DNA of 33,743 nucleotides from a virus, in the IMG/VR virus record IMGVR_UViG_3300046167_000546, positions 1 through 33,743 of that record; one strand, written 5' to 3'. The translations under genes were made by a program, and so were the position numbers. Of the stretch, positions 1 to 33,183 are shown piece by piece. Under the pieces are notes generated by a model. It did no database searches and had not been told where the DNA came from. It was given only the letters and a program-made list of their open reading frames with translations. Positions within the stretch are counted from its first letter, which is position 1; each line of letters starts with the position of its first letter.

Positions 1-321
1 GGTACGTCAGTGGGTGGTGATTACTATGTGACTGGCGGCAACGTAGATCAATCCACGCAGACCAGCACCGCAACGTCTTCAACAACCAGTAATGAAACAA
101 CGACTACAAGCACAACCACCACCAACACGGATAGCAATAACGTGACTGAGTATGTAACCAACGAGTATGTAACCACGGAAGGTACTAACGTAAGCCTAGA
201 GGATATTCAGGCGCTATTGGCTAACAACCTGGAGGTCACTGTTCTGATTGACGGTGAGGCTGTTGAGGTTGAGCAGTGTGAAGACGGTGGCCTAACGTTT
301 GGCGGCGACACTTGCTCTTGA
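1..321 (+). CDS. Virion lipoprotein, C-terminal part (gene starts at the right end of the window)
   Basis: The reading frame is open from base 1 to a TGA at 319-321. It encodes a Gly/Tyr start (VGGDYYVTGGN), a long Ser/Thr/Asn low-complexity stretch and a compact end, GGLTFGGDTCS. A GTG at 10 could act as a start but has no clear ribosome site. The content fits the missing C-terminus of the lipoprotein that starts at 33257. Removing one C at the junction (tccc|ggt) gives one frame of 268 codons. Known fact: phage lipoproteins with such Thr/Asp-rich tails occur near tail-fibre genes. Inference: this is the second half of that gene in a circular genome. Function is unknown. Confidence 0.6.
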   Translation, partial: GTSVGGDYYVTGGNVDQSTQTSTATSSTTSNETTTTSTTTTNTDSNNVTEYVTNEYVTTEGTNVSLEDIQALLANNLEVTVLIDGEAVEVEQCEDGGLTFGGDTCS

Positions 322-332
322 GGTAATAGATT

Positions 333-2084
333 ATGGGTTTGGTAGCAAAAGCTTTAGAAGAAGTCGCGGCCCTTGTTAGGAAGGGGCTTTCCGAAGACGT
401 AGCCGAGCGAGTTGTGGACGGAGCTATTTCTGAAGAAAAAGGCTTGCAAATAATGGAGCGAAGAAACAACCGCCAAGCCCTAAGAGATGAGGCAAACCGT
501 TTAAGGTTTGGCGATCCCGATACGTCTTACAGAGGCGATCACCGAGCGCCAGATGCAGACTATGGTGCGCCACTGCACGACCTAACCCAGATGATTCCCG
601 ATGATATATATAGCTCACAAGGAAAGCGGCTTTACGGTCTTGGAAGAAGTGATGTAGATGACGAGGCGTTTGACGTTCTTAACGCTGTGCGCGGTCAGCC
701 AGATGCGGAAGTAACAATGTACCGGGCAGTCCCGGAAGATGCACCAGACTCAATACTGGACGGCGATTGGGTTACGACTAGCGAAGAATATGCACGGATG
801 CATGGCGAGAACACACTTAATAATGAGTACAAGATATTAACCGAACCCACGTATGCAAGGCGCTTGCAGTCTGAGGGCTATCCGTATGAATTTGGTTATA
901 TGGAGAAGGGCAGCGCAACGCCCGGCGGTTTAGCCGCAGCAGGCAGCACAGCGCTAATAGCCTCATTGCTGGCTGAAGACTCTAAGGCTGGGGTCGGCGG
1001 ACATATTGCTAAAGAGGTGGCAGACCTCGTTCGGCTTGGCTTCCCTGAATCCACTGCCACCAAGATCGCGTCTGGTGAGCTTCCTATGGATACAGCCAGC
1101 AGGATGCAGCGGGCCGAAGAGCAGGGGTATTCTCCTGATGTGGTTTATAGGGGTATTGGCAGAGATTATGATCCTGATAAGGCGGGTCATTATCAAATGT
1201 TTACAAGCAGCAGTCAGGATGCGGCTGAGTATGGCGATAATGTTATTGAGGCCCGATTAAACCTCGGGGACAGTATTGAGGTTGATGGCAGGGGCAGGAA
1301 TTTTAATAATATTTACGTTGGCGACTTGCCAAGTAATTTATTTGACCGCCTTCATGGAAGCGAAAGAGAGTCCCTGATAGCTAGAACAGATGATTTAGCT
1401 CACGCTGCTAATAAGGCTGGCAATGATTCACTTATTATAAAAAACATTTACGACAAGGCAGACAACGAAATACCCAAGCGTCCAAGTCCCAACACTGATA
1501 GCCGAATGCCAGATATAGAGCTTTTGAGGGGGCTTGGGATAGAGGTAGATGCGACTCCAGCAAAAAGCGGCGGCTCATTTGTTGACACAAAAAACTATGA
1601 TCCCGTTGATGTTAGTGTTGTTTTTGACCCATCAAGGGTTAGGTCGGCTGATGCCGCTTTTGATCCAGATTACAAAGGCTCAAACATACTAGGCGAGTAC
1701 GCACTACCGGCAGGCAGCACAGCGCTAATGGCCTCGTTACTAGCTGCACCCGAAGAGGCAGAGGCTGGCATAACCGCAGGCAGTGAGTCCAATGCCGTCA
1801 CAGAGGCCACAAGCCGTATTGTGAACCACATGTTAGACAACGTAACCGAAGTCACAGACTTACTTGAAATCCCTCAGCGGGGCATTCAGGGGTTGCTGCG
1901 GGCAGGGTATGGGCTTATGCAAGGGGACGGCCTAGACGCCTCACTAAATGCAGGCGCTGATGTGGTTAATCAGGGTGTTGAAGAAACGGCCAAGCAAGCC
2001 GGGGATGCCATGCTAGAGAAGACTGGCAACCCGGAGTTGGCAGCTATGGCCTATACCGCCGTCATGCTAGGCAGTCCGCTTTAA
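333..2084 (+). CDS. Protein with two ADP-ribosyltransferase-like domains (polyvalent/ejected effector candidate)
   Basis: 583 aa; ATG preceded by GAGG at good spacing. Two similar units are visible, each starting with a short helical segment (about 5-45 and 225-262). The first ART-like domain spans roughly 120-190: VTMYRAVP, GDWVTTSEEYARMHG, then a GYPYEFGY end. The second spans roughly 262-450: VVYRGIG, FTSSSQDAAEYG, SLIIKNIYD and VVFDPSRVRSADAAFDP. The latter matches the ART-PolyVal-like family in phage polyvalent proteins. Each unit ends in a near-identical hydrophobic stretch (AGSTALIASLLA, AGSTALMASLLA). It is the last gene of the late operon, after the tail fibre and lipoprotein, so it may be packaged and delivered with DNA. 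Enzymatic activity is inferred only. Confidence 0.75.
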   Translation: MGLVAKALEEVAALVRKGLSEDVAERVVDGAISEEKGLQIMERRNNRQALRDEANRLRFGDPDTSYRGDHRAPDADYGAPLHDLTQMIPDDIYSSQGKRLYGLGRSDVDDEAFDVLNAVRGQPDAEVTMYRAVPEDAPDSILDGDWVTTSEEYARMHGENTLNNEYKILTEPTYARRLQSEGYPYEFGYMEKGSATPGGLAAAGSTALIASLLAEDSKAGVGGHIAKEVADLVRLGFPESTATKIASGELPMDTASRMQRAEEQGYSPDVVYRGIGRDYDPDKAGHYQMFTSSSQDAAEYGDNVIEARLNLGDSIEVDGRGRNFNNIYVGDLPSNLFDRLHGSERESLIARTDDLAHAANKAGNDSLIIKNIYDKADNEIPKRPSPNTDSRMPDIELLRGLGIEVDATPAKSGGSFVDTKNYDPVDVSVVFDPSRVRSADAAFDPDYKGSNILGEYALPAGSTALMASLLAAPEEAEAGITAGSESNAVTEATSRIVNHMLDNVTEVTDLLEIPQRGIQGLLRAGYGLMQGDGLDASLNAGADVVNQGVEETAKQAGDAMLEKTGNPELAAMAYTAVMLGSPL

Positions 2085-2269
2085 TTCCACTTAGGCGTTA
2101 CACGCTCCAGCCAACGCGAGGGTGCGTCCACCTGTCTTCGTACTGACAGGTCAAACAGTATTACTATTGGCTCATTGAGATTATCGGCCATATTTTGTGC
2201 GGCCCGCAGTGCAATGCTTACGTCTTCAGAGTCCCAGGTGGGTATGTACTTATTTACGCTGGCGTTCAT
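2081..2269 (-). CDS. Small hypothetical protein (62 aa)
   Basis: 62 aa, not recognised. The ATG at 2269 has AAAGGA about six bases upstream. It converges on the ART-like gene with a 4-base overlap of the 3' ends and lies on the attP side next to the integrase arm sites. The sequence is soluble and mixed (IVILFDL strand, several Trp/Arg); no signal peptide or membrane segment is seen. Its strand matches the integrase operon, but the attP lies between them, so in the prophage it would end up at the opposite end from int. Confidence 0.55.
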   Translation of the reverse strand: MNASVNKYIPTWDSEDVSIALRAAQNMADNLNEPIVILFDLSVRRQVDAPSRWLERVTPKWN

Positions 2270-2279
2270 GTCATTCCTT

Positions 2280-2299
2280 TAAGGCAAATCTAAGGCAAA
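2280..2299. repeat. Left pair of integrase arm-type repeats (TAAGGCAAA x2)
   Basis: TAAGGCAAA occurs at 2280-2288 and 2291-2299, 11 bases apart start to start, which is about one helical turn. A matching pair lies on the other side of the attP core. Paired direct repeats flanking a core are how tyrosine integrase arm sites are arranged in lambda-like attP regions. The assignment to integrase binding is inferred. Confidence 0.6.
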
Positions 2300-2383
2300 A
2301 TGAATGACAAACAAAGGGCTTTATAGTCTCCAATAACACCGTATAAGTTATTAAAATCAATGACTTAGCTATAGCATAAACAA

Positions 2384-2407
2384 GTTCGAGTCCCGTCCGC
2401 TCCGCCA
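2384..2407 (+). other. attP: attP core: 3' end of a tRNA-Asp-like gene
   Basis: The bases from GTTCGAGTCCC to CTCCGCCA read as the T-loop, 3' T-stem, acceptor strand and CCA of a tRNA. Upstream (ataaacaa) the match stops, so this is only a tRNA fragment. E. coli tRNA-Asp ends almost identically (…GTTCGAGTCCCGTCCGTTCCGCCA as one run, differing at one acceptor base). The core lies directly downstream of int. The phage presumably restores the 3' end of the host tRNA-Asp gene on integration. Confidence 0.82.
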
Positions 2408-2463
2408 TTTTATCCCTTCAATTGTCGTTTAACTTCAGTAACTTACAAATTCCAAATGTAATT

Positions 2464-2484
2464 TAAGGCAAGATTTAAGGCAAC
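2464..2484. repeat. Right pair of integrase arm-type repeats (TAAGGCAAG / TAAGGCAAC)
   Basis: TAAGGCAAG at 2464-2472 and TAAGGCAAC at 2476-2484, 12 bases apart, are the partners of the left pair. The second copy overlaps the stop codon and last codons of int, which ties the site to the integrase gene. They lie about 60 bases from the tRNA-like core, against about 85 for the left pair. Confidence 0.6.
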
Positions 2485-3509
2485 TTGCGCTCGAGTGGTG
2501 TGTCAAAAATCTGCTGGTCGGCATACGCTTCAATGTACTCAGAATAGATACGCAAAAACATTTCTACGCTATGACCCATTTGCTTCGCTGCGGCGGCTGG
2601 GTTGACATTAGCGGACAGCAGTTCAGCAGCCCGAGTGTGTCGGCAAACGTAGGGTATCCGATACGCAATACCCGTAACGTCATGGGCTTGCTTCCACGCA
2701 TCAGCCACCAACTTGCTGTCCAACATGGCTGTGCCTTTGGTGTTCAAGAACATGTGACCGCCTGCAAACCGTGACGGCAATTCATTAATCAGTACACGCA
2801 CCCAAGAGGGTACGACCACAGCCCGGCTCTCGTCGTTCTTCAATGTGTCTAGCTTCCGCCTGGTCATTGAGCGTTCAAGGTGTAGGCGCTCACCGTCCCA
2901 GTCACCCCACTGCAAACCCAGCACTTCACCCGTCCGCAATCCAGCGCCAAACATAATGGCAAAGAACACCCGAGCTTGACCGTCCAATGCACCTAACAAC
3001 GCCTCACGTTCTTCAGGCTTATAGCGCTCCACCTTGGGCCTCTGCTGCTTTCTAAGCCGTATGGATGAGCAAGGGTTAGGGCTAATCTCTGCGTGGTCTA
3101 GGACGCCTTTAAGCACCAACAGGGCGTTACGCTTCGTTTTGTTCTTAACGTCACGCTCGGCCAATATGCGTTTAATAACTCTGGCATTAATCACGTTGAG
3201 CTTGGTGTGTTCAAGCGGGGGCATCCACCAACTATTCAACAAATTGGCATAAGACATTGAGGTGCTGCGCTTAACATCAACCGTGTTCAGCCAGTCCTGT
3301 GCAGCCTCGCCAAAGGTGGCAAATGAAAGGACAGCGCCATTACTGACTAACTCAATAATTTGATTGCGGCGCTTTACGCAAGCGGTGATGTGAGCTTTGT
3401 CACAGGGGCCTTCGTGTTCTTCTGAGTAGGACTTTCCGTTGACCGTGACACGGATTCGGATACCAGAGTTTTGTTTGCTGAGTCCTGTCGGAAGCCTTCG
3501 CTTAACCAT
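2475..3509 (-). CDS. int: Tyrosine-family site-specific integrase
   Basis: 344 aa, the usual size for a phage tyrosine recombinase. The N-terminus (RLPTGLSKQNSGIRIRVTVNG) resembles an arm-binding domain, and residues about 65-145 the core-binding SAM-like domain. Catalytic residues can be followed: R192 (GAGLRTGEVLGL), K224, R290 in PYVCRHT, H313 in MGHS and the nucleophile Y322 (RIYSEY). The usual first His of HxxR is Tyr (YVCR), as in many phage integrases with a PYxxRHT motif. It recombines attP with the host tRNA gene; its 3' end touches the arm-type repeats. The ATG at 3509 lies inside the excisionase gene, so the two are probably co-transcribed. Confidence 0.95.
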   Translation of the reverse strand: MVKRRLPTGLSKQNSGIRIRVTVNGKSYSEEHEGPCDKAHITACVKRRNQIIELVSNGAVLSFATFGEAAQDWLNTVDVKRSTSMSYANLLNSWWMPPLEHTKLNVINARVIKRILAERDVKNKTKRNALLVLKGVLDHAEISPNPCSSIRLRKQQRPKVERYKPEEREALLGALDGQARVFFAIMFGAGLRTGEVLGLQWGDWDGERLHLERSMTRRKLDTLKNDESRAVVVPSWVRVLINELPSRFAGGHMFLNTKGTAMLDSKLVADAWKQAHDVTGIAYRIPYVCRHTRAAELLSANVNPAAAAKQMGHSVEMFLRIYSEYIEAYADQQIFDTPLERKLP

Positions 3510-3661
3510 TTCTCTGCCTCATCCTTTTTAACCAATGTGGTCTTGCCAACTACAACGTAATGTACACCACGTTGCCAGTAGTTGTTTTTCTGCCATGACT
3601 TAACGGTGCTTTCAGGCACCCCCAGTTCATCGCAAAATGATTTCCTGCTAATCAGGTTCAT
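3374..3661 (-). CDS. xis: Excisionase-like winged-helix protein
   Basis: 95 aa. The start at 3661 is preferred over an upstream in-frame codon at 3700 because GGAG sits nine bases before it and the protein then begins with the HTH (MNLISRKSFCDELGVP). Features seen: HTH at about 4-25, then the YWQRGVHYVVVGKTTLV strand pair and EAEKWL, typical of small excisionase/AlpA-type DNA-binding proteins. The last 45 codons overlap the start of int in another frame, a longer overlap than in lambda. It probably bends attP/attR DNA and sets integrase direction. The Ser/Thr/Lys tail may be dispensable. Confidence 0.7.
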   Translation of the reverse strand: MNLISRKSFCDELGVPESTVKSWQKNNYWQRGVHYVVVGKTTLVKKDEAEKWLSEGFRQDSANKTLVSESVSRSTESPTQKNTKAPVTKLTSPLA

Positions 3662-3719
3662 ACATAAAGCTCCAAAAAGTCCCCGCCTGGAGTCTCCCAA
3701 CAGAGGCGGGGCAAAGGGT

Positions 3720-3884
3720 TTATTCTTGCTCTTCGCTGGCTTCCAAGGTGGCTATGTGCTGACTTGCCACGTTGAATATAGTGATTGCCATTGACCGCCA
3801 GTCGATAGCAACGCCAGTCTTCTCAGCTTCAATCGCATTACCAATCATTTGATTGAGCGTAATCTGTTCGGCTGGATCGTCCAT
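3720..3884 (-). CDS. Small hypothetical protein (54 aa)
   Basis: 54 aa, not recognised. The ATG at 3884 has GGAG six bases upstream. An in-frame ATG at 3896 overlaps the preceding stop (TAATG) but has no ribosome site. It is acidic and helical (MDDPAEQITLNQMIGNAIEA…ASEEQE) without membrane segment. It sits between the SSB-tail protein and the excisionase in the same minus-strand run, so it is probably co-expressed with the recombination genes. Confidence 0.55.
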   Translation of the reverse strand: MDDPAEQITLNQMIGNAIEAEKTGVAIDWRSMAITIFNVASQHIATLEASEEQE

Positions 3885-3895
3885 GTTGTTCTCCA

Positions 3896-4222
3896 TTAAA
3901 AGGGTATGTCTTCGGGTGCAGCCATAGGCTCAGGAGCGGCTACAGGCTTAGGGGCGGGTGCTGCATCGGGATGCCACATTTGAAAATAGAGGTCGCCCTC
4001 TTGACTTTCCTTCAAGTCAAACCACAGCGTCTTACCTTGTGTGCCGTCTTTATTTAAGATTGGGTTTTTGTCTTGATCAATGGCGTCAGTGCATCGCCCA
4101 TTCGCTATGCACTCTTCAGCAAAAGCCTGAAACTCAGGGAGGTTTACAACAACCCGATTCCTTGCGTACTTGGGATCTTTTGGTGCTATGGTTTTCATGC
4201 CTTGTATTTTTACTCTACCCAT
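3896..4222 (-). CDS. SSB-like protein with EDIPF C-terminal tip
   Basis: 108 aa. The body (VKIQGMKTIAPKDPKY…VVVNLPEFQAF…LWFDLKESQEGDLYFQMWHP) is not a canonical SSB OB-fold that I can recognise. It ends in an Ala/Pro/Glu linker and an acidic-aromatic tip, PEDIPF. Such a tip (DDIPF in E. coli SSB) is the docking peptide for SSB-interacting repair proteins. It lies between the exonuclease (8-base overlap of 3' and 5' ends) and excisionase in an operon with Erf, so a ssDNA-binding role in recombination fits. AAGGAAG precedes the ATG. Confidence 0.6.
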   Translation of the reverse strand: MGRVKIQGMKTIAPKDPKYARNRVVVNLPEFQAFAEECIANGRCTDAIDQDKNPILNKDGTQGKTLWFDLKESQEGDLYFQMWHPDAAPAPKPVAAPEPMAAPEDIPF

Positions 4223-5090
4223 TTTTTACTTCCTTCAGTTGTAGTGTTTCCACCAGTTCACCCCGAAACGGCTCTAAGTCCGCAGTGGGCATTAATGATT
4301 TAAAGGCTTTGGCGTAGCTGATAGAGCCTTTGCGTGTGGTCTTTTGAACGCGGTAGTTGAGGCCAACCACATCACGTTCTTGGGCATACTCAAACATCAA
4401 GCCTTTAAGGTGCTTTGCTGACATTTCAGCACTCGCCAACTTCTTCATTACCGCCTCATACTGGCCTTCAAGAATCAGCCAGTCAGAATCTTGGCTAAGG
4501 TCGGCAATGTCGGGGGTATCTTCCAAGTCTTTAAGGAACTGAACCCAGCCGTCACAGATAGCCTCGCGCAACTCAAGATCAGGCAGATACCATTGGTGAC
4601 AGCTTTCAGCCTCATTGCTTGCCATGAACAAGCACTGGTCTGCGCCACTCACTAATAACTGCTGTTCCATTTGAATGCGGTGCTGGATAGGTATCTGTCC
4701 TGCATCAACAGCCGCCTGAATCTTTTGGTTCCACGTTTTGTGTTCCCACAATACGGTGTGTTCCATGTCGATACCGTCAAAGGACGCCGACAAGCGGCCC
4801 TGAATTGCGTCAGGCAGGCCGTTGCCGTCATACACTCCCGACATGGGGGCTAAGTCTTCGCCTGCTATCTCGCAGGCAAAGGGAAGCGCACGGGCCTCTA
4901 GCTCATGGCCCTTGGCAAACAGCATCGCTTGATAGCTGCTGATGTTCTTCTCTTTGCCCCAGTTGCGAATGAACGAATCTCTAGAGCCATAGCCTTCGCC
5001 CATCATTTCAGGTGCCTGGGAGGCGGTTAGGTGGGTGGCTCTGAACAGGTGCCATTCAGGAGTTCCTTGATCGAGGTCAACTATCTTCAT
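4215..5090 (-). CDS. YqaJ/lambda-Exo-type recombination exonuclease
   Basis: 291 aa. The N-terminus has the family signature Q-GTPEWHLFRATHLTAS (8-24). GHELEARAL supplies a conserved Glu (E63), and SASFDGID…WEHK gives the PD-(D/E)XK core D105, E116, K118. HRIQMEQQLLVSGAD (137-151) is the conserved downstream motif. The family degrades one strand of duplex DNA to feed a ssDNA annealing protein; the partner here is Erf, two genes upstream. GGAGG precedes the ATG, and start and stop overlap neighbours by 4 and 8 bases. The C-terminal 80 residues are helical. Confidence 0.88.
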   Translation of the reverse strand: MKIVDLDQGTPEWHLFRATHLTASQAPEMMGEGYGSRDSFIRNWGKEKNISSYQAMLFAKGHELEARALPFACEIAGEDLAPMSGVYDGNGLPDAIQGRLSASFDGIDMEHTVLWEHKTWNQKIQAAVDAGQIPIQHRIQMEQQLLVSGADQCLFMASNEAESCHQWYLPDLELREAICDGWVQFLKDLEDTPDIADLSQDSDWLILEGQYEAVMKKLASAEMSAKHLKGLMFEYAQERDVVGLNYRVQKTTRKGSISYAKAFKSLMPTADLEPFRGELVETLQLKEVKNG

Positions 5091-5404
5091 TTTACGGCCT
5101 CCATTTCATCTAAAAGAACCATGCACTTGTTGCCAATCTCCACTGCCGCAGCATTTGCCCTGTCATGGGCAGTCGTTGGGACTATGAAAGCAACGTCATC
5201 AACAAGCGGTTTAGGGTGTCCGTTCCAATATCGGCGCGAACACGTTTGATAGAAGTAGTGACAGACGCTCGTGTATTCCATTTTCATACGCTCGGCGTGT
5301 TGCTGTGCGGCATCCCACTTTGACAGGCAAAAATCATATTCTTCAGAAGGCCCACCCATAGCAGATAAGCAGACAAAAGAAAGCGCAAGAATCAATGCTT
5401 TCAT
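5087..5404 (-). CDS. Secreted/periplasmic protein nested in the recombination operon
   Basis: 105 aa with a clear signal peptide: MK then the hydrophobic ALILALSFVCLSA, with likely cleavage after about residue 15. The mature part has four Cys (26, 48, 55, 94), aromatic-rich (YTSVCHYFYQTC), suggesting two disulphides. It overlaps Erf by ATGA upstream and the exonuclease by 4 bases downstream, so it is translated with cytoplasmic recombination proteins although it should leave the cytoplasm. Function not recognised; an envelope role such as superinfection exclusion or lysis is only a guess. GAGG lies seven bases before the ATG. Confidence 0.7.
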   Translation of the reverse strand: MKALILALSFVCLSAMGGPSEEYDFCLSKWDAAQQHAERMKMEYTSVCHYFYQTCSRRYWNGHPKPLVDDVAFIVPTTAHDRANAAAVEIGNKCMVLLDEMEAVK

Positions 5405-5988
5405 GCCGCCACCTCTGGTTCATTCTCTCGCAGCAGCTTTTCCAAATCGGCGCTAATGGTGTACTTGCGCTTCCAGTGGGCGATAGCTTTATCCGCAGTG
5501 CCGCGTCCAGCTTGTATAGCCTCTATGACCTTCTCAACAGCGTCTTGTGGAACGTTGGGTTTTACCTTGGGCTGTCTAATGGCAGGGGCGGGTGGTGTGC
5601 TGTGCTTGCTGTCTTCACCGTCCAAGTCGGCTTGGGCCACCCCGGTCATTGCAGCCAATCCATAGCGGCGAAGATAGGTGGTTGCAGAGCCAATGCCTTG
5701 GCCGTCCATTTTGGCAGGGACGCAGCTTGCCTCGCTGCTAATACTGCCGCCACCTGCATGTGCCAGTACCGTAGTCACGGTCACCATAGAGCCGTCAAAT
5801 GCTGTACCCTGAATGACAGCAATGCCATTTTTTGAGAGCGCAGGTTTAACGGTGTCGAGGATAGACGCCAGGTCAGCGTAGTCAGATTTAAAGTGCGGGT
5901 TCTTAGAGTTCTTTGCCGCGTTGACAATCTCGCCCTGAGCCTTGGCTAAAGCGCCATATAGCTCCGCGTTTCCAGTTTCAGTGTGCAT
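5401..5988 (-). CDS. erf: Erf-family single-strand annealing protein
   Basis: 195 aa from the ATG at 5988, which has GGGAG upstream; a longer in-frame version begins at 6012 without a good site. The family core is plain: LAKAQGEIVNAAKNSKN, then FKSDYADLASILDTVKPAL (about residues 33-51), then GIAVIQ and the GSATTYLRRYGLAAMTGV block. A Pro-rich linker at about 148-165 leads to a small helical C-terminal domain. Erf anneals complementary ssDNA, enabling circularisation or recombination of phage DNA. It forms an operon with the YqaJ-type exonuclease and the SSB-tail protein. Confidence 0.92.
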   Translation of the reverse strand: MHTETGNAELYGALAKAQGEIVNAAKNSKNPHFKSDYADLASILDTVKPALSKNGIAVIQGTAFDGSMVTVTTVLAHAGGGSISSEASCVPAKMDGQGIGSATTYLRRYGLAAMTGVAQADLDGEDSKHSTPPAPAIRQPKVKPNVPQDAVEKVIEAIQAGRGTADKAIAHWKRKYTISADLEKLLRENEPEVAA

Positions 5989-6199
5989 AGTTACTCCCTT
6001 CAAGAATCTCACCCAGATAATGCTGGGCCTCTTCAGCGGCCTCTTCGGTCGCCAGTTCCAGTGCGGCAGTCAGTTGCGTGTGGTTAGCGGCAAAAGTGAT
6101 CTCACTCACAGCGCTCTCCACAAACACATTCCACTCGCCATTTCTTCGTACAGCGGTCGTGTTAAACCGCAGTCGATCAACTGAGCTTTTCGACAACAT
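5978..6199 (-). CDS. Hypothetical protein (73 aa)
   Basis: 73 aa, not recognised. The ATG at 6199 is chosen because GGAGG lies eight bases upstream; an in-frame TTG at 6214 has none. It overlaps the upstream gene by 23 bases and Erf by 11. The protein looks soluble, with a strand-rich half (RLRFNTTAVRRNGEWNVFVE) and an Ala/Glu helix (ALELATEEAAEEAQHYL). It is probably a small accessory of the recombination operon. Confidence 0.6.
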   Translation of the reverse strand: MLSKSSVDRLRFNTTAVRRNGEWNVFVESAVSEITFAANHTQLTAALELATEEAAEEAQHYLGEILEGSNYAH

Positions 6200-7416: not shown

Positions 7417-7737
7417 CAAACTCATACACCATTGACCTCTCTATCAGTCGTCGGGGAAACCACGGCAGGGCTGATTGAAGCGCGGTTACTGTGGGATGTG
7501 TTCGCAGCCGCAAGGGGACTCGAAAGGTGGAACCCCGAACACTCAGGCGCAGATTAGCCTGATTAAGTTGCCACCGAACTCATAGCTACTGCGGTGTATG
7601 AGTGACCTAACTGCCGATGTGACGGTGACGGGTGAGAGAGAGTGAACCTAGGCGAATTCTCTCCTAAGTTCCTCTCTAACCTATCAACCAATGCTCTGGC
7701 TCTGGGTGAGTTTTAAAACACTTTGAAGGGAAATTAT
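7417..7737 (+). other. Structured leader region before the ParB/methyltransferase gene
   Basis: No convincing gene fills this stretch. It holds several hairpins: TCAGGC/GCCTGA (7543-7562), ACTCATA/TATGAGT (7578-7603, perfect 7 bp), and a nested 51-base stem-loop at 7631-7681. That one has an outer stem GGTGAGAGAG/CTCTCTAACC and an inner GAACCTAGG/CCTAAGTTC, each with one imperfect pair. The last ends 57 bases before the next ATG. It may be a long 5' leader, a small RNA, or a decayed cro-like gene. Confidence 0.35.
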
Positions 7738-9102
7738 ATGCACGAAAATATTAGTCAAATTGATATTAATAAATTGCAACCGCACCCACAAAACCCAAGG
7801 CTTTCACTGCGACAAGATGTAGTTGATGCTTTGATTATAAATATTGGCAAAAACTTTGACCCGGCACACGCGCTTTTGGTGCGCGAAACTGCCAGCGGTT
7901 ATGAGGTTTTAAGCGGCCACCACAGGCTAGAGGCCGCAAAACGTAACGGCCTTGAATCTGTCCCATGTTGGGTTAGGGATATGAATGATGACGAGGCTTA
8001 CATGGCCTTAGTCACCAGCAACAGCCAAGGTGAGTTATCGCCATTAGAGATTGGCTTTCACGCACTAAATTGCGTTGCCTTGTCTGCTGGTGGCAGGGGG
8101 CAAAAAGGCGGCTTGTCTGCCTATGCCGAGCGGGTGGGGAAGTCGCAACCGTTTATTTCGCAACTGGTCAAGGCGGCAGAGGTTGCAAAAGGTATAAGCG
8201 GGCTTATGGGTTTAGAGACAAAAACCCAGCACCTAAACGCCATTCACTCTTTGCCCGAATCCTGCTGGCCCGAGGCTGTTCAGTTCATGCTTGATAAGGG
8301 GTGGTCAAAGGAAGAAACACAAAAGCGGGTAAAAGATTCAGAGGCGTCTACGGAAAAGCGGCGCATTGCGTTGTTTGTTGGCAAGACCAGCCAGCGCGAG
8401 TTAAAGCGCATGGATGATTTGCGGCAGCAAGTGGCGCAAAACATTGAGTACGAAGACCTAAAAGCCGAATGGCTAGACTGGCTAAACGTAAACGATCCAA
8501 CTGACATTAAAGAATTTCAAGCCCAGCGGATCGAAATAGAGGAGCGGGTGTTAGAGAGGCGAGAGGCTGAAGAGGAAGCGGCCAAAGCACAGAGGGAGAT
8601 AACACTGCCGCAATTAGTTTTAGCTGACCCGCCCTGGCGTTATGACTTTGCCCAATCTGATTCCCGTCAAATCGAGAATCAATATCCAAGCGCTACAGTT
8701 GACGAGATTATTGATCACTCACCCGAGACTCACCACGACTGCGTTTTGTTCATGTGGGCAACGGTAGCAAAGCTGCAAGAGGCTTTCGAGGTTATGCAGG
8801 GTTGGGGCTTTGAATATAAAACCCACGCCGTATGGGACAAGCAAAAAATAGGTATGGGTTACTGGTTTAGGGGGCAGCATGAATTGCTGTTAGTGGGTAC
8901 AAAGGGGCAGGCGTCACCACCAGAGGAAGCCAATCGAGTAAGCAGCGTTTTTAGTGAGGGGCGCGGCAAGCACAGCAAAAAGCCTGAGTGCGTTTATCAG
9001 TGGCTGGACACTGCATTCCCAAATATTAACAAGCTAGAGATGTATTGCCGCGAGTCAAGGCAAGGTTGGGTTGTGTTTGGTAATGAATCGGGGGTGGCGT
9101 AA
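7738..9102 (+). CDS. ParB-like domain / MT-A70 adenine methyltransferase fusion
   Basis: 454 aa from the ATG at 7738 (GAAGGG upstream); a TTG at 7723 is in frame but lacks a site. Residues 7-100 are a ParB/Spo0J-type domain: IDINKLQPHPQNPR, then VLSGHHRLEAAKR (57-69). Residues about 125-285 hold an HTH and a charged coiled linker. Residues 293-450 are an MT-A70 methyltransferase with DPPW at 297-300, YWFRGQHELLLVG (375-387), HSKKPE and LEMYCRESRQGW (433-444). The expected reaction is S-adenosylmethionine-dependent N6-methylation of adenine in DNA. It is translationally coupled (TAATG) to a nuclease-like gene. Confidence 0.88.
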   Translation: MHENISQIDINKLQPHPQNPRLSLRQDVVDALIINIGKNFDPAHALLVRETASGYEVLSGHHRLEAAKRNGLESVPCWVRDMNDDEAYMALVTSNSQGELSPLEIGFHALNCVALSAGGRGQKGGLSAYAERVGKSQPFISQLVKAAEVAKGISGLMGLETKTQHLNAIHSLPESCWPEAVQFMLDKGWSKEETQKRVKDSEASTEKRRIALFVGKTSQRELKRMDDLRQQVAQNIEYEDLKAEWLDWLNVNDPTDIKEFQAQRIEIEERVLERREAEEEAAKAQREITLPQLVLADPPWRYDFAQSDSRQIENQYPSATVDEIIDHSPETHHDCVLFMWATVAKLQEAFEVMQGWGFEYKTHAVWDKQKIGMGYWFRGQHELLLVGTKGQASPPEEANRVSSVFSEGRGKHSKKPECVYQWLDTAFPNINKLEMYCRESRQGWVVFGNESGVA

Positions 9103-9614
9103 TGGGGTCAGTACATGATTTTAGGGACAGTCTTGAGTTTTCTCACGCAGTCGGGGAAGAACCGTTTTGGGAGTCGTTATATAGACAGTGGTTCCCAACC
9201 ATGCAGGGCATGCACAGCCATGATCAAAACGGCGATCACCAGAAGGCTGGGATTGATCGCACTATTATATTGAGAAATTCAAAGCAAATTACGATTGATG
9301 AAAAGGTAAGGCGCAAAGATTATGGCGATATTTTGCTTGAATTTTGGAGCAATAAAGAAAAAAAGATAGAAGGTTGGGTAGCTAAGGATTTGCTCTGTGA
9401 TTATGTCGCCTATGTAATTAGGCCCGCTAAACAGGGTTATCTTTTGCCAGTCCCACAATTAAGGGCCGCGTGGCGCAAGCACCATGTTGAATGGCTTAAA
9501 AAGTATGAGCGGATAAACTGCAAAAACAAAAATTATACGACTGAATCGGTAGCCGTACCGCCTGATGTTGTGTTTGCGGCAATGAACAGCGCTTCACAAG
9601 GCGGCTTTGAATAA
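9102..9614 (+). CDS. PD-(D/E)XK-like nuclease candidate coupled to the methyltransferase
   Basis: 170 aa. After a helical N-terminus come GIDRTIILRNS (D52) and ITIDEKVRRKDYGDILLEF, in which D66-E67-K68 supplies the (D/E)XK motif one strand later. This spacing, with a Gln-rich/aromatic third strand (KDLLCDYVAYVI), fits the PD-(D/E)XK endonuclease fold. The ATG overlaps the methyltransferase stop (TAATG), so the pair is made together. It may be a restriction partner, a Holliday-junction or repair nuclease; no cognate specificity can be read from the sequence. Confidence 0.55.
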   Translation: MGSVHDFRDSLEFSHAVGEEPFWESLYRQWFPTMQGMHSHDQNGDHQKAGIDRTIILRNSKQITIDEKVRRKDYGDILLEFWSNKEKKIEGWVAKDLLCDYVAYVIRPAKQGYLLPVPQLRAAWRKHHVEWLKKYERINCKNKNYTTESVAVPPDVVFAAMNSASQGGFE

Positions 9615-9697
9615 TGGGCTTTTTATTGGGCGGGCAATTTGCGTCTTTTTTATTAACTGTGAATAATGGCAATGCTATGCGGAGGGGTACAGCATGA
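9614..9697 (+). CDS. Micro-ORF (27 aa), hydrophobic
   Basis: 27 aa beginning MGFLLGGQFASFLLTV, so probably membrane-attracted. Its ATG overlaps the preceding TAA (TAATG) and its TGA overlaps the next ATG (ATGA). This coupling is the main reason to accept it. Function unknown. Confidence 0.4.
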   Translation: MGFLLGGQFASFLLTVNNGNAMRRGTA

Positions 9698-9810
9698 TTA
9701 TATTTGTAATGGTTTGTTATACCTGGTGGGCGATTGAGCGGGAGCGCGAATACCGCAGGATGCTGCCACCACGCCGTCTAGCGCCTTTCTCAACGGAGGG
9801 TGTGCAATGA
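9694..9810 (+). CDS. Micro-ORF (38 aa), N-terminal hydrophobic segment
   Basis: 38 aa with GGAGG nine bases before the ATG. It begins MIIFVMVCYTWWAIERERE, a short membrane-like helix followed by a charged segment, then a Pro/Arg-rich end. It overlaps both neighbours by ATGA. Candidate small membrane protein; function unknown. Confidence 0.5.
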   Translation: MIIFVMVCYTWWAIEREREYRRMLPPRRLAPFSTEGVQ

Positions 9811-10142
9811 CAGTCGAAGAGCAGATTAAGGCGCTGACAGCGCGAGTCGAGGAACTGGAGGCCCAGTCCAGTAAGAAGCGGGGCAAGTTATTCAAGCCGC
9901 CCACACCGCAGGAGGTAGAAGATCATGCCGCTAGCCGGGGCTTAATCATCGACGCTAACGCCTTCATTGATTTCTATGAGTCTAAGGGCTGGAAGGTTGG
10001 CACGGCCAAAATGAAGTGCTGGAAGTCATCGGCTAATAACTGGATTCGCAATCAAGCGAAGTTTGAGAAGCCCAACGCCGTCACCCTAGCCAACAAGAAC
10101 TCCAAGCTGGTCACTGATGACACGATGGGGTGGTTGGAATGA
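9807..10142 (+). CDS. Replication-initiation-accessory-like protein (C-terminal replisome-organiser-type domain)
   Basis: 111 aa. Residues 1-22 form a short coiled coil (EEQIKALTARVEELEAQ). Residues 30-85 carry FKPPTPQEVEDHAASRG, DANAFIDFYESKGWKVG and MKCWKSSANNWIRN. This pattern is common at the C-terminus of phage replisome-organiser/DnaD-like proteins, here without the N-terminal DNA-binding domain. GGAGGG precedes the ATG. It overlaps the next gene by ATGA, and that gene looks like a helicase-loader type, so a role in recruiting the host helicase is plausible. Confidence 0.5.
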   Translation: MTVEEQIKALTARVEELEAQSSKKRGKLFKPPTPQEVEDHAASRGLIIDANAFIDFYESKGWKVGTAKMKCWKSSANNWIRNQAKFEKPNAVTLANKNSKLVTDDTMGWLE

Positions 10143-10621
10143 ACGCTAAAGAGATGGACGATTGCTTACATGCACTGGGTCAGACCTATGCGTTTTACGG
10201 CAAAGAGTTAGACAGCTTGCAGGTGGGATTCTGGCGGCAGTTTTTCAACGGTAAGAATCCACACCACGCGCTCACAGCCATAAAGAACTACGCCATTTCT
10301 GGCCGTTATGCACCTAAGCCCAAAGACTTGCTGGAGGAATACCAGAAGCTTAAAGACGCTGACACGGTTGAGCGTAGCTATGTCACGCCAGCTTTAGCGG
10401 CTCCCAAATGCCCGGCAGACGTTAGTTTGGGGTGGCGTTATTGGCTGCCTCGGTTTTATGGCAATGACGTTGGTGGCCTTATGGGAAAGGTAGACAAGGT
10501 TACAGAGGAGCAGGCTGAACACCTGTTGTTTGTTGTCAACAAAGAGGCCAAGGCCCAAGGGCTGATTGAGGCCATACCCGAGGCGTTCAGATTGGAGGCC
10601 GTATGGGGAAAAGCCTGCTGA
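10139..10621 (+). CDS. Possible helicase-loader-type replication protein
   Basis: 160 aa from the ATG at 10139, overlapping the upstream TGA. It starts with a helical domain (DDCLHALGQTYAFYGKEL, VGFWRQFFNGKNPHHALTAIKNYA) and KPKDLLEEYQKL. This resembles the N-terminal part of phage helicase loader/inhibitor proteins, which bridge origin-bound proteins and the replicative helicase. No Walker motif is present. The second half (WRYWLPRFYG…EEQAEHLLFVVN) is not recognised. Call rests on general pattern and on its neighbour. Confidence 0.4.
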   Translation: MNAKEMDDCLHALGQTYAFYGKELDSLQVGFWRQFFNGKNPHHALTAIKNYAISGRYAPKPKDLLEEYQKLKDADTVERSYVTPALAAPKCPADVSLGWRYWLPRFYGNDVGGLMGKVDKVTEEQAEHLLFVVNKEAKAQGLIEAIPEAFRLEAVWGKAC

Positions 10622-10791
10622 GGAAGAAGGTGAAGCAGAGCAGGGCATGGGACGCGGATGACCACATGACACGAAAAGAGGTCGCTGAGTCCTTAAACCT
10701 AACCTATGGGCAAGTTAAGCGGGCAGAAACCACTGGCCTAAACAAGCTTTATGAAAACAAGACAATGAGGGCATGGGCTGATGAGCGGTGA
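10603..10791 (+). CDS. Small HTH protein resembling sigma-70 region 4
   Basis: 62 aa. Basic N-terminus (LLRKKVKQSR), then MTRKEVAESLNLTYGQVKRAETTGLNKL, which has the layout of a sigma region 4 / FIS-type HTH: K-E-V-A-x-x-L, turn, then V-K-R-A-E. The gene starts within the previous one (19-base overlap) and overlaps the next by 11 bases. A small DNA-binding regulator, possibly of late or early transcription; target unknown. Confidence 0.5.
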   Translation: MGKSLLRKKVKQSRAWDADDHMTRKEVAESLNLTYGQVKRAETTGLNKLYENKTMRAWADER

Positions 10792-11191
10792 AGCTTGGAC
10801 AGTTAAGGATTCAGACACGTTGCAGCATTTTGTGGCTTATGTGACGGCTAGATACGAGCAGGGCATTACGTACAGCATTCAGAGGCCCAACCGCACGGGC
10901 AAACAAAACAACGCCATACACGCCTGTCTGCGGCGTCTAGCGAGGTCATTGAATGACGCAGGTTATGGGGTGGCCCATCCATTAAAGCCTGAGCTTGAGA
11001 TTCCCTACAGCGAGAGCAGCGTTAAAGAGCTTTTGCTGAAGCCCATTATTAGCGCCCTCTATGACGTTGACAGCACCAGCAAGCTCGACACTGAGCAGGT
11101 GAGCAAGGTCATGGGTCTGATGCTTAACCGCGTTGCAGAGCTTACAGGGGTGGTTGAGGAGTTTATTTTGGGGGAACTCAGCCATGAATAA
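10781..11191 (+). CDS. Conserved phage replication-region protein of unknown function
   Basis: 136 aa. Features: RPNRTGKQNNAIHACLRRLARSLNDAGY (about 36-63, basic with a Q-N), then EIPYSESSVKELLLKPI and a helical C-terminus with AELTGV. This arrangement, with basic/QN helix, LNDAG, a [DE]IPW/Y…VKE..L.P motif and a helical end, occurs in a family of phage proteins found by replication and NinB/NinG-type genes. Its role is not known to me. It is coupled to both neighbours. Confidence 0.5.
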   Translation: MSGEAWTVKDSDTLQHFVAYVTARYEQGITYSIQRPNRTGKQNNAIHACLRRLARSLNDAGYGVAHPLKPELEIPYSESSVKELLLKPIISALYDVDSTSKLDTEQVSKVMGLMLNRVAELTGVVEEFILGELSHE

Positions 11192-11342
11192 TCAGCATTG
11201 GTGTGTCTGCGGCGCACCGTATCGCCTTCACAATGTCGTGAGGGCTGCGGGTGAGACAAATGGCGGGCTGATGCTGACTAGCCGCTGGTGGTGGATATGC
11301 CACACCTGCTTTAGCTTCGAGGCGCATCATGGGGGGGATTAA
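11184..11342 (+). CDS. Small zinc-ribbon-like protein (52 aa)
   Basis: 52 aa. It holds two Cys pairs, WCVCGAP near the start and WICHTCFSF near the end, a zinc-ribbon-like layout, and ends in HHGGD. The ATG overlaps the upstream stop by 8 bases, and the 3' end overlaps the HNH gene by 14. It probably binds one zinc. It may assist the HNH nuclease or act in DNA/RNA binding. Confidence 0.5.
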   Translation: MNNQHWCVCGAPYRLHNVVRAAGETNGGLMLTSRWWWICHTCFSFEAHHGGD

Positions 11343-11751
11343 GCGAACAGCCGCAGACGCGCATTTTAGTAACGCCGTTAGAAGTCGTGACAGGTGGACA
11401 TGTCAGCGTTGCCGCAAGAGCTATGAGCATTCCACCCAGGGGCTAGACTGCGCTCATATTGTAGGACGTAGAGGGGCCAGTACGCGCTACGACTTACACA
11501 ATGCATTGAGCCTTTGTTTTACATGTCATCGGTGGTTTGACGGCGAGATACTAGAGGCTGGCGACTGGTTTTGTCAGACATTCGGTGAGGCCCGTAAGGA
11601 CTATCTACTAGAGCGTAAGAACTGGGTCGTTAAGAACAACGACAAGCTACGCAATGCGGTATCCGCGCATTACCGGCAAGAGCTTCAGGCTTTAAAGGAC
11701 GACCCACTGCATAAGATCAACAACTTCGACATAGTACCGTTCAAAAAATAA
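11329..11751 (+). CDS. HNH endonuclease, NinG/Rap-like
   Basis: 140 aa. The core reads CQRCRK (C25, C28), LDCAHIVGRR (H43), RYDLHNALSLC (N58) and CFTCHRWF (C63, C66, H67), an HNH fold with a structural zinc. The rest is basic and helical. Such small HNH proteins act in phage recombination (NinG/Rap) or in packaging beside terminase. Here it closes the DNA-metabolism operon, 1.4 kb before the terminase genes. GAGG lies seven bases before the ATG at 11329. A terminator follows at once. Confidence 0.8.
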   Translation: MGGIKRTAADAHFSNAVRSRDRWTCQRCRKSYEHSTQGLDCAHIVGRRGASTRYDLHNALSLCFTCHRWFDGEILEAGDWFCQTFGEARKDYLLERKNWVVKNNDKLRNAVSAHYRQELQALKDDPLHKINNFDIVPFKK

Positions 11752-15122: not shown

Positions 15123-15124
15123 GT

Positions 15125-24569: not shown

Positions 24570-24570
24570 A

Positions 24571-30930: not shown

Positions 30931-33183
30931 ATGCCAAGAGATACAGCCGGGAACTACACACTACCAGCGGGCAACCCTGTCGCGTCTGGTGAGATTATCT
31001 CAGCAAGCTGGGCTAACTCCACGATGAATGATTTGGGTCAATCCCTCAGTGCCAGCTTAGACCGTTATGGTCGTGGCGGCATGTTGGCCCCATTCCAATT
31101 TACGGACGGTACTGAGTCGGCCCCAGGTGCAACGTGGAGCAACGAGCCAACAACAGGCTTATATCGGGCAGCCTATGGTGATTTACGCTTTACGCTCACG
31201 GGTACGGACGTTCAGCGTTGGACAAGTGCAAACGCTTATCTGTGGCGTAACAGCCAGTGGGAGGAAATACTTACTCAGGCAGGTGGCGGCGGCGATACCA
31301 CTATTAACAACTTGGTGGTTACGGGTAGCTTTACTTCCCCCGGCATCGACGACAACGCTACGTCCACGGCTATCACGATTGATTCCAATGAGAACGTTGG
31401 CATCGGTACGAACGCTCCTTCAGCTTTTGGAGGAAAGGTCGTAACTGTAGGCTCTCAGACAACAGGCGGATCTACTTACGGCGTCTACTCTAACAATGCT
31501 ATCAACCAGTTCTTAAAGATAGGAATCAATGGAGATCAGGCAGAGATAACGTGGGACGACGGAGACTTCCTTGCTTTAGGAACTAGACCCGATAGCGCGT
31601 CTACAGCTTCCTTGACAGAATACATGCGTATCACCAGCACAGGAAACGTGGGTATCAATGAGCCAAGCCCCTCGACAAACTTACAAGTATCTAGCCCGAC
31701 TGGAGGCAATGCTTACCTAGAAGTTGCTCGTAAGAACTCTAACGCATCAGCGGTTCGTATTGCTGCTGAGAATGGGCTAACCGGTCTGTATTCTCAAGGC
31801 GATGAGCCTCTATGGTTCGGGGTAAACAGCACTGAGCGTATGCGTATCGACTCCACAGGAAACGTTGGCATTAACCAGCTTAATCCTCAAGAGAAGCTAG
31901 ACGTTATTGGTACGGGTTCGTTTACCGGCATGAAGATAGGCGGTAACGGTACTGATATAAACAGCACGTTCCTTGGCGCAAACTCGATAATGACGTTTAG
32001 GAACAATGGCGTCGAGCATATGCGTATCGACTCCTCAGGAAACGTGGGCATTGGAGAGACAGCTCCAAGCAGTAGCTATGTCGTTAAGTTTGCTCATGTT
32101 ACAGACCCTACGTCTGCTGGCTACTTATGTGAGAACTCTACTGCCAAGTGGTCAACGTATGTAAACACATCGGGCGCGTACGACATTCGTAACGAGACCT
32201 CTGGAAACCTTGCAATGCGTATCGACGCCTCAGGAAACGTGGGCATTGGTACGGACGCCCCAGCACAGCTTCTCTCTGTGGGTGACAGTGATGTTGTCTC
32301 TACTAACTACATAAGAATGAACCAACGGACACCTACAGCAGCAGCAACTTACGGCGGGTTAGAGTTTTTCTACGACAACACGGCTGGAATTACAGGCGTC
32401 AACGCTGCTATACGTTACGCCTCTGGTGCAGCAAGAAACGATGGAGAGCTGACTTTCTACACAGGGTCTAGCGGTTCGACTTCTGAAGCCATGCGTATCA
32501 GCTCCTCAGGAAAGGTTGGTATTGGAGTAAATAATCCTACTAGGGTTCTTCAAACAGATGGTACGCAAGTAGACTTCTCAAGGAATGGAAGGACGATAGA
32601 GTTAAACCCAAACGCTGGCAACGCTAATACGCACTCGACCATTCTGGTTGATTCGGGCATGGGTCTGAGTGTAGACATCCAAGGATTCGGCGAAGCCATG
32701 CGTGTCTCCAACGGAGGGAACTTGCTGGTTGGTGCTACTTCGCCAGCTCAAGTAACCAGCGGATCTGTCAACGGTTGTTATTTAAGCGGTTCAGCAGACA
32801 CCTCTTTCTCAAGAAGCACTACTAACAACCGAGGGCAAATAGCTTTCTATAACCCCAATGGTTTAGTTGGACAGATTACAACATCTGGCAACACAACAAA
32901 TTACGCAGAGCAGTCAGACGAACGCCTAAAGGAGAACGTTGTAGACGCACCTGCTGGCAACATCGACAGCATCAAGGTTCGTTCATTCGACTGGAAGAGT
33001 GACGGTGAACATCAGGAGTACGGATTCATAGCTCAAGAGCTTGAGACTGTAGCACCCTATGCTGTATCTAAGGGCGAGACTGATGAGGACATGTGGGCTG
33101 TTGACTACAGCAAGCTAGTCCCAATGCTGGTTAAAGAAATCCAAGACTTAAAGGCCGAAGTAGCGGCACTCAAAGGGGCATAA
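30931..33183 (+). CDS. Tail fibre with C-terminal S74-type intramolecular chaperone
   Basis: 750 aa. The N-terminus (TLPAGNPVASGEIISASWANSTMNDLG in pieces) is a virion-anchoring type. The shaft contains five or six copies of MRI(D/S)SSGNVGIG, beta-helical repeats. The end QSDERLKENVVDAP…GFIAQELE…DYSKLVPMLVKEIQDLKAEVAAL is the peptidase S74 chaperone, with the Ser of SDERLKE as nucleophile for self-cleavage and a trimeric coiled coil after it. It binds the host surface. Full length and in frame. Confidence 0.92.
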   Translation: MPRDTAGNYTLPAGNPVASGEIISASWANSTMNDLGQSLSASLDRYGRGGMLAPFQFTDGTESAPGATWSNEPTTGLYRAAYGDLRFTLTGTDVQRWTSANAYLWRNSQWEEILTQAGGGGDTTINNLVVTGSFTSPGIDDNATSTAITIDSNENVGIGTNAPSAFGGKVVTVGSQTTGGSTYGVYSNNAINQFLKIGINGDQAEITWDDGDFLALGTRPDSASTASLTEYMRITSTGNVGINEPSPSTNLQVSSPTGGNAYLEVARKNSNASAVRIAAENGLTGLYSQGDEPLWFGVNSTERMRIDSTGNVGINQLNPQEKLDVIGTGSFTGMKIGGNGTDINSTFLGANSIMTFRNNGVEHMRIDSSGNVGIGETAPSSSYVVKFAHVTDPTSAGYLCENSTAKWSTYVNTSGAYDIRNETSGNLAMRIDASGNVGIGTDAPAQLLSVGDSDVVSTNYIRMNQRTPTAAATYGGLEFFYDNTAGITGVNAAIRYASGAARNDGELTFYTGSSGSTSEAMRISSSGKVGIGVNNPTRVLQTDGTQVDFSRNGRTIELNPNAGNANTHSTILVDSGMGLSVDIQGFGEAMRVSNGGNLLVGATSPAQVTSGSVNGCYLSGSADTSFSRSTTNNRGQIAFYNPNGLVGQITTSGNTTNYAEQSDERLKENVVDAPAGNIDSIKVRSFDWKSDGEHQEYGFIAQELETVAPYAVSKGETDEDMWAVDYSKLVPMLVKEIQDLKAEVAALKGA
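31624..32530 (+). repeat. Dispersed ~35-bp DNA repeats inside the tail-fibre gene
   Basis: atgcgtatcgactcc-caggaaacgt-ggcatt recurs at 31624, 31840, 32020, 32215 and 32491, with a degenerate sixth near 32698. Identity is high at DNA level, unlike the codon-varied coiled-coil repeat. The copies are spaced 180-276 bases and in frame, so recombination between them would delete or add whole shaft units. Confidence 0.75.

Follow-up and report, generated by a model that had tools for sequence, protein, structure and literature searches.

Background

Phage polyvalent proteins, as described in passages of Iyer et al. (2017, PMC5512222), carry several effector domains in one polypeptide and are coded near virion genes in a late-phage context; ADP-ribosyltransferases (ARTs) are their commonest protein-modifying domain, with up to 12 copies per protein, GNAT domains are found beside ARTs, and cassette-like recombination is raised as a possibility for a kinase-bearing polyvalent locus. 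The same passages name T4 Alt as a packaged ART. Parts of three other papers supply further points of comparison: AcrIF11 is an ART whose target inside the infected cell is Csy1 (PMC12421852), the T4 internal proteins have only a capsid-targeting sequence in common (PMC3012670), and MuF polymorphic toxins join a phage head protein to toxin domains that can be exchanged and that include ARTs (Jamet et al. 2017, PMC5576092). Here we analyze a 583 amino acid (aa) protein with two ART-like domains, D1 and D2, which is encoded by an ATG-start open reading frame (ORF) at 333..2084 (+ strand) of the 33,743 bp virus record IMGVR_UViG_3300046167_000546, a temperate phage; this whole stretch of DNA is called the window below. 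Homologues are present at the loci L002, L003, L007, L035 and L036.

By domain content and position the window protein counts as a phage polyvalent protein. It has two effector domains (the homologue in a sister phage has an ART-like and a GNAT domain) and is encoded at the end of the late genes, after a lipoprotein gene, and relatives also lie with virion or packaging genes. Unlike the proteins of Iyer et al., it has a D1 without a Pfam match, the ART-PolyVal profile (PF18760) finds nothing in it, D2 included, and Pfam identifies no metallopeptidase domain; beyond what those authors describe, replacement of enzymatic domains ("cartridges") at repeated linkers is directly seen between sister phages. 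Like the MuF toxins it has exchangeable enzyme domains, and the relative L015 has the order MuF-D1-GNAT; unlike them it has neither a MuF domain nor an immunity ORF downstream. The idea of a packaged effector is shared with T4 Alt and the internal proteins, and a D1 homologue in Vibrio phage VH7D bears an internal-protein leader; unlike the T4 proteins, the window protein lacks this leader, and its phage is podovirus-like and temperate. The combination of D1 and D2 and the replacement of cartridges between sister phages are new as far as the searched literature goes; in the best-ranked search results nothing on the D1 family as ARTs or on cartridge exchange was found beyond passages of PMC5512222, PMC9503650 and PMC5576092.

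Results and Discussion

Two ADP-ribosyltransferase-like domains

The initial annotation had read two ART-type motifs of different subtype in this ORF, and both are present: YRAVP...GDWVTTSEEYA contains R131 and S150 of D1 (528..902, + strand, residues 66-190), and VYRGIG...FTSSSQDAAEYG...FDPSRVRS runs from R273 onward in D2 (1128..1667, + strand, residues 266-445, with a disordered insert at about 376-420). The assignment of two different ART subtypes agrees with confident predicted folds, nearest solved structures that are mostly ARTs (at low scores) and conserved candidate catalytic residues. In the AlphaFold model of the full protein (mean predicted local distance difference test score, pLDDT, 71.3; predicted template modelling score, pTM, 0.39) the block means are mostly above 90 in D1 and mostly 80-93 in D2 outside the disordered insert; confidence is low in the linkers and where the tail begins, with many residues below 50.

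Pfam returned nothing above its cut-offs for the protein or for either half (best row E 0.067) and no ParB domain, and a PDB sequence search gave nothing for the full protein or a D1 profile. The PHROGs match is confined to residues 50-190, which align with positions 325-461 of the 472 of phrog_2579, "ParB C-terminal domain" (E 6.7e-28). Modelled alone, D1 has a pLDDT of 90.6 and a pTM of 0.82. VIA-align gave Z ≥2 for 29 of 328 chains, of which 26 entries are listed (best Z 4.8, root mean square deviation 2.9, 73 aligned residues); we class 21 of the 26 as ART-superfamily folds, 11 of these being LT or cholera toxin A1 and the others including KptA, the added domain of CNFy, Arr, TreX, Vis, Tse6, RES and IcmQ. 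The best Foldseek row in PDB is Vis (E 0.67). Because the best VIA-align Z is only 4.8, and values below 8 may reflect just a common arrangement by the tool's own caution, the fold supports the ART assignment of D1 and is not conclusive.

Thirteen residues are invariant among 24 aligned D1 sequences (Y66, H70, P123, R131, G144, D145, W146, V147, Y153, A154, H157, E186 and G188), and the S150 column is S in most rows and N, T or V in a few. The conservation agrees with R-S/T-E catalytic residues, for which R131, S150 and E186 are the candidates, and the succession of R131, a TxS stretch and E186 is that expected of an R-S-E ART; the D1 homologues of phages E3 and Bask21 retain the R and the E. 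Since the fold is ART-like, the name "ParB C-terminal domain" looks wrong for the D1 part. D1 probably represents a widespread ART family under a misleading label, one that is new as far as the searched literature goes. The family was found in 171 of the 50,697 phage records searched, 150 of them from Mycobacterium phages, and among the 40 records listed the gene is named hypothetical protein in 31, ParB-something in eight and acetyltransferase in one. We note that Bask21 gp133 (L054:1492-1881), a lone D1 with the ART residues, is annotated "ParB C-terminal domain", an annotation that looks wrong.

D2 takes up the VIA-align list of the full model: at least 46 of its 50 rows belong to PARP1/2/3, tankyrase, ParT, diphtheria toxin or AcrIF11, at Z 5.2-5.9 and with much redundancy among the PARP1 and PARP2 entries. 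The first row, chain B of the cyanophage A4 pre-ejectosome (Z 6.0), is not counted as an ART, and neither are the catalytic domain of one insecticidal protein and two rows that match helices only. AcrIF11 (PDB 6KYF) is the second row (Z 5.9, 9% identity) and also the best Foldseek PDB row for the full model and D2 (E 1.0). Among predicted viral structures, 27 match the full model at E ≤0.001; many are large phage proteins, and the names include "Large polyvalent protein associated domain-containing", "ART-PolyVal-like domain-containing" and acetyltransferase. The PDB sequence search with D2 gave three rows at chance level only (E ≥0.83).

Four distinct proteins are known to carry D2, those of the window, L002, L035 and L036 (= L037), and they have R273, F290, T291, S293, Y300 and D374 in common; no phage record with D2 was found. 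The triad of the ART-PolyVal/HYD2 clade is given in a passage of PMC5512222 as His in strand 1, Tyr in strand 2 and Asp in strand 5. All four D2 carriers have Arg273 in place of the His (the domain that replaces D2 in the sister phage reads VYHGT), and D2 is a variant of the polyvalent ART clade in that Arg stands at this place. R273 and S293 are candidate catalytic residues, and Y300 and D374 are candidates for the Tyr and Asp positions of the triad. Like AcrIF11, with which it has a fold match, D2 has a conserved acid close to a strand end, and D374 may correspond to AcrIF11 D115 (named in a part of PMC12421852); AcrIF11 is a standalone 137-residue anti-CRISPR protein, and no sequence relation between it and D2 was detected.

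The ratio of nonsynonymous to synonymous differences per site (pN/pS) is 0.21 (window/L007) and 0.41 (window/L002) for D1 and 0.28 (window/L035) for D2, with synonymous sites saturated in each domain. These low values indicate that both domains are under purifying selection.

A repeated frame around unrelated domains

Each domain is preceded by a leading helix and followed by a hydrophobic linker. The first helix (336..428, residues 2-32) resembles the second (1011..1130); linker 1 (939..998, from residue 203) and linker 2 (1710..1769) form a 60-nt direct repeat of 75% identity; and a helical tail of residues 484-583 (1782..2081) closes the protein, all on the + strand. The initial annotation had claimed similar leading helices and near-identical hydrophobic elements, and both similarities exceed chance when local BLOSUM62 scores are compared with those of 1000 shuffles: 49 against 22.5 ± 4.6 for the helices (reached by 1/1000) and 58 against 24.7 ± 4.9 for the hydrophobic elements (reached by 0/1000). 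Its further proposal, that one ART unit was duplicated and then diverged, did not survive the same comparison, as D1 against D2 scores 37 with shuffles at 33.2 ± 5.9 (reached by 238 of 1000), and each domain occurs without the other in other phages; duplication of an ART unit is rejected on this score. Since the helices and linkers are alike while D1 and D2 are unlike in sequence, it is the frame that is repeated and not the enzyme.

The two linkers use the same codon at 8 of their 11 identical residues, where 2.6 are expected from codon usage (22 of 20,000 simulations reach 8); the linkers of L007 do so at 10 of 16 (49 of 20,000 simulations), and linker 1 has 26 nt in common with the linker of the sister phage at 96% identity. 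The shared codons and the 26-nt match therefore point to common descent of the linkers as DNA. By eye, the linkers of the window, L007, L008, L009 and L035 look like signal peptides, with a hydrophobic core and a small-x-Ala end (SKA, AEA, SEA, AQA, ADA). No S77 prohead protease that could cleave these linkers was found in the window record.

The tail is 96% identical to that of the sister protein and weakly related to the L007 tail (60 against 28.9 ± 5.3, 1/1000 shuffles), and has no similarity to the C-termini of L035, L008, L009 or L002; no phage record with this tail or the L007 tail was found. We considered the tail as a widespread packaging signal and rejected the idea, the sister being the only relative found.

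Cartridge replacement between sister phages

The sister phage is IMG/VR 3300046167_000495 (34,995 bp; loci L003, L046 and L047), with which the window has 23,543 of its 33,743 bases (~70%) in common in blocks of ≥80% identity. Around the effector gene the matching blocks are 1-340 (89%), 1011-1130 (95%, to L003 10022-10141), 1653-1768 (94%, to L003 10658-10773, with linker 2 inside it) and 1776-3720 (96%). The first spans the end of the upstream gene and the start of the effector gene, and the other three cover helix 2, linker 2 and the region from the tail onward, respectively. Window 341-938 and 1131-1652 have no match in the sister. The sister protein (508 aa) begins with the equivalent of the second helix and continues with an ART-PolyVal-like domain (PF18760, E 3.3e-6, 28.4 bits, below the cut-off of 31.2), a linker, a GNAT domain (PF14542, E 8e-4, 19.9 bits, below the cut-off of 30), another linker and the tail. 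Relative to the window protein, D1 is missing, D2 is replaced and a GNAT domain is added, with sharp borders at the repeated elements. The GNAT cartridge was found only in two phages of one metagenome, and its pN/pS is 0.14 (sister against L007).

Other larger blocks that the two phages do not share include 7717-9660, 22545-25683 and, within the tail fibre gene (30931..33183, + strand; PF13884 and tail fibre PHROGs), 31089-33178. The pair thus gives a direct view of phage re-arming, in that sister phages differ in few blocks and these include the tail fibre and the effector cartridges. We note that the first of these blocks contains, at window 7723-9102, a fusion of ParB_N with an MT-A70 adenine methyltransferase.

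The window phage encodes a RecE/YqaJ-like recombination exonuclease (4215..5090, - strand; phrog_7655, E 8.8e-63, PF09588 below its cut-off) and an ERF single-strand annealing protein (5401..6012, - strand; PF04404, E 3.3e-23, phrog_2324). Rad52-like phage recombinases, including Erf of phage D3, are described in a part of PMC3945230 as recombining diverged sequences more efficiently than RecA, and the RecE/ERF pair possibly made the exchange.

Relatives that mix the same modules

The same modules recur in other combinations; the scans were based on patterns and reach close relatives only, so the counts of relatives are lower bounds. L007 and L035 belong to another podovirus-like kind (portal phrog_1216, scaffold phrog_3927, head phrog_1328). 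The L007 protein has D1 (75% identity), a linker, the GNAT domain of the sister (83%) and a different tail; that of L035 has a helix, D2 and a linker, and no D1. L002 has D1 and D2 and follows the portal gene (phrog_156) immediately. In L036/L037, D2 occurs without D1, behind an N-terminal stretch that looks by eye like another ART and draws no Pfam row at 0.05, and the L036 gene sits between portal and scaffold genes. In L010, L011, L013 and L021, D1 is followed by differing second domains, with PF18760 over its cut-off in L013 (39.2 bits) and L021 (46.6), below it in L010 (22.3) and absent from L011. L015 is a fusion of MuF (PF04233, over the cut-off), D1 and GNAT (PF14542, below it).

Genome contigs were also searched for prophages that might name a host, and D2 was found in none and D1 in one (a lower bound from one peptide pattern). 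This one belongs to a metagenome-assembled genome named Fluviicola (L050); its D1 protein does not differ from the one in the 222-kb T4-like virus L031, and it is perhaps a phage contig binned into that genome. A 1673-aa phage protein (L017:6186-11207) contains ADPrib_exo_Tox, D1 and other parts, split by repeated GDVAGHEFHGNQ-like linkers, another type of seam.

Association with virion genes and packaging leaders

D1 was found at 29 loci, and neighbours or fusions were annotated for 11 that were picked because they have large neighbouring ORFs (L002, L007, L008, L009, L010, L011, L012, L013, L015, L021 and L026); the other 18, several of them standalone D1 genes, are unscored. At all 11 annotated loci a terminase, portal, scaffold, major head, internal virion protein, tail fibre or MuF gene is fused to the D1 gene or lies no more than about three genes away. 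Of four named phages, two have D1 near such genes: in phage E3 the D1 gene adjoins a gene named "structural protein", and in phage Skog it lies four genes ahead of the tail sheath gene. The other two, Bask21 and VH7D, do not.

The VH7D D1 protein opens with MKTYTEFLSE, followed by D1, and T4 ipII and ipIII open with MKTYQEFIAE; the VH7D leader scores 40 against each of ipII and ipIII and 31 against ipI, with a maximum of 18 among 42 other T4 genes of the examined stretch. Standalone D1 genes also occur in T4-like phages with an S77 protease and gp23 at L031 and L032 (2 of 14 records tested, the others often being fragments). In a pooled test at seven loci, 26 of 117 other N-termini scored ≥20 (a threshold of our choice) against the D1 leader, compared with 11 of 408 internal Met-window controls, the signal being carried by L022, L024, L031 and L032. 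In L032 and L024 several unrelated small genes have common leaders (MSILNE..E, MKI..L.E) that resemble capsid-targeting sequences, and such leaders offer a route to finding packaged phage proteins.

The initial annotation had also suggested that the protein is packaged and delivered into the host. The virion-gene neighbours of many relatives and the VH7D leader favour this indirectly, and the positions of the Bask21 and VH7D genes (below) speak against it. Delivery of the window protein is inferred from its kinship and position, because it has no T4-type leader.

Proposed function and alternative explanations

The explanation that we favour, with modest confidence, is that the 583-aa protein is a host-directed polyvalent effector, made late, delivered with the virion and diversified by recombination at its linker seams. 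The protein would be made together with the late genes, would most likely be carried in or on the virion, and would enter the next host along with the DNA. There two NAD-dependent ARTs of different types would modify two host macromolecules, plausibly belonging to the defence or the transcription and translation machinery; D1 would be of the R-S-E type and D2 a relative of the AcrIF11/ART-PolyVal type with Arg replacing the first-strand His. The enzymes would act as cartridges, each with a leading helix before it and a hydrophobic linker after it; helix, linker and C-terminal tail would form a constant frame, and the cartridges would be swapped by recombination at the repeated frame DNA, perhaps with the assistance of the phage's RecE-like exonuclease and ERF annealing protein.

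Several observations weigh against this explanation. The fold scores are weak (D1 Z ≤4.8, D2 Z ≤6.0), Foldseek against PDB gave no row at E ≤0.001 for the D1 model or the full model, and D2 is without the triad His of ART-PolyVal/HYD, which leaves its chemistry uncertain. Cartridge exchange is directly visible in one sister pair only, matching blocks of 26-120 nt do not identify the acting recombinase, and no close relatives of the C-terminal tail were found outside the sister. The window protein has neither a T4-type leader (its N-terminus is MGLVAKALEEV, compared by eye) nor MuF (PF04233), and the leader signal is unclear at L025 (1/7 against 1/20 in controls), L027 (1/8 against 1/52) and L030 (3/19 against 3/79). 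Finally, the D1 gene of mycobacteriophage Bask21 is a lone 129-aa gene by a helix-turn-helix gene, with no annotated structural gene in 3.3 kb, and that of VH7D lies between regA and DNA polymerase; the D1 family is therefore not everywhere tied to virion genes.

These last two settings, one non-structural and one among replication genes, also fit the most serious alternative, a moron that never enters the virion and is expressed in the infected cell or the lysogen, whose ARTs would act in the producing cell in superinfection exclusion, in anti-defence (as AcrIF11) or in late modification of the host (as T4 ModA/ModB). The gene's position, next to the integrase at the close of the late operon, is a usual one for morons, and AcrIF11, the second structure in the D2 list, acts in the infected cell (as a part of PMC12421852 reports). 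We nevertheless consider a moron unlikely, as the effector ORF starts just 11 nt past the stop of the lipoprotein gene, none of the promoter-like sites in 1-3000 (4 found, 3.1 expected) lies ahead of 333, relatives are fused to MuF or lie beside portal, scaffold, terminase and internal virion protein genes, and the VH7D relative bears the T4 internal-protein leader.

A polymorphic toxin of the MuF kind, directed at competing bacteria or phages and paired with a cognate immunity gene, appears quite improbable. The constant frame with variable enzymatic cartridges recalls such toxins, as does the MuF fusion of one D1 relative, whereas the window protein itself is without MuF and its exchanged cartridges lie between constant ends, MuF toxins varying at the C-terminus. 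Downstream of the effector gene, moreover, plus-strand ORFs reach at most 36 aa (35 aa in L003 and in L007) before the integrase, and the other strand has a 62-aa ORF at 2081-2269; the suggestion in the initial annotation of a role in phage-phage conflict found no specific evidence, there being no candidate immunity ORF above 36 aa on the plus strand. Slightly less probable still are enzymatically dead ART folds with a structural or adaptor role in the virion: weak fold scores and the non-canonical residues of D2 would be expected of these, while the retention of R131, E186, R273 and D374 across deep divergence, at pN/pS of 0.21-0.41, would not.

Beyond the effector proposed above, we tentatively offer a broader reading that is, taken as a whole, somewhat unlikely. 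In some phages the end of the late operon would be a dedicated effector slot, in which helix and linker DNA act as seams and the phage's own RecE/ERF pair swaps virion-delivered cartridges between unrelated phages; the linkers may be membrane-insertion or cut sites that free single enzymes, and D1 would be a widespread hidden ART family. If this were true, the slot would be the phage counterpart of polymorphic-toxin cassettes.

The D1 family of 171 phage records is suggested to be an ADP-ribosyltransferase with a head-packaging leader in at least one phage, so that the role of injected phage ARTs becomes testable in laboratory phage-host pairs.

Genomic setting

The window phage is temperate and, by our own label, P22/Mx8-like; its major head protein has 70% identity with the one of Stenotrophomonas phage BUCT555 and 63% with the one of Myxococcus phage Mx8, and its other genes include terminase, portal (phrog_12082), amidase, tail fibre and the RecE/ERF pair. 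Convergent with the effector gene is a tyrosine integrase gene (2475..3509, - strand; PF00589, E 2.2e-11; phrog_1). Upstream lies the 3' part of the lipoprotein gene (1..321, + strand), so called from an LGAC lipobox seen by eye, with its 5' part at 33257-33743; the record starts and stops within this gene and, compared by eye with the sister, lacks about 5 nt of a full circle.

The initial annotation had placed the effector gene after the fibre and lipoprotein genes, an order that cannot be read directly in the window because the record opens and ends within the lipoprotein gene. In the sister the order is unbroken, with genes in the fibre place (L003 5409-9117), the lipoprotein gene (9192-9986), the effector gene (9998-11524) and the integrase; the genes in the place of the window fibre include one with DUF7483, and none is called a fibre by Pfam.

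The window portal gene is present as two overlapping ORFs (15083-16000 and 15990-17270) where the sister has one open frame of 729 aa, which reflects a frameshift in the record or an assembly error. Two further overlapping ORFs (21304-21639 and 21590-22039) match the first and second halves of one tail family, phrog_6013, a possible second frameshift. A GNAT-like gene (phrog_4470) is located among the tail genes at window 24138-24569, and phages BUCT555 and ppBjS10J-1 have a GNAT gene among their late genes too.

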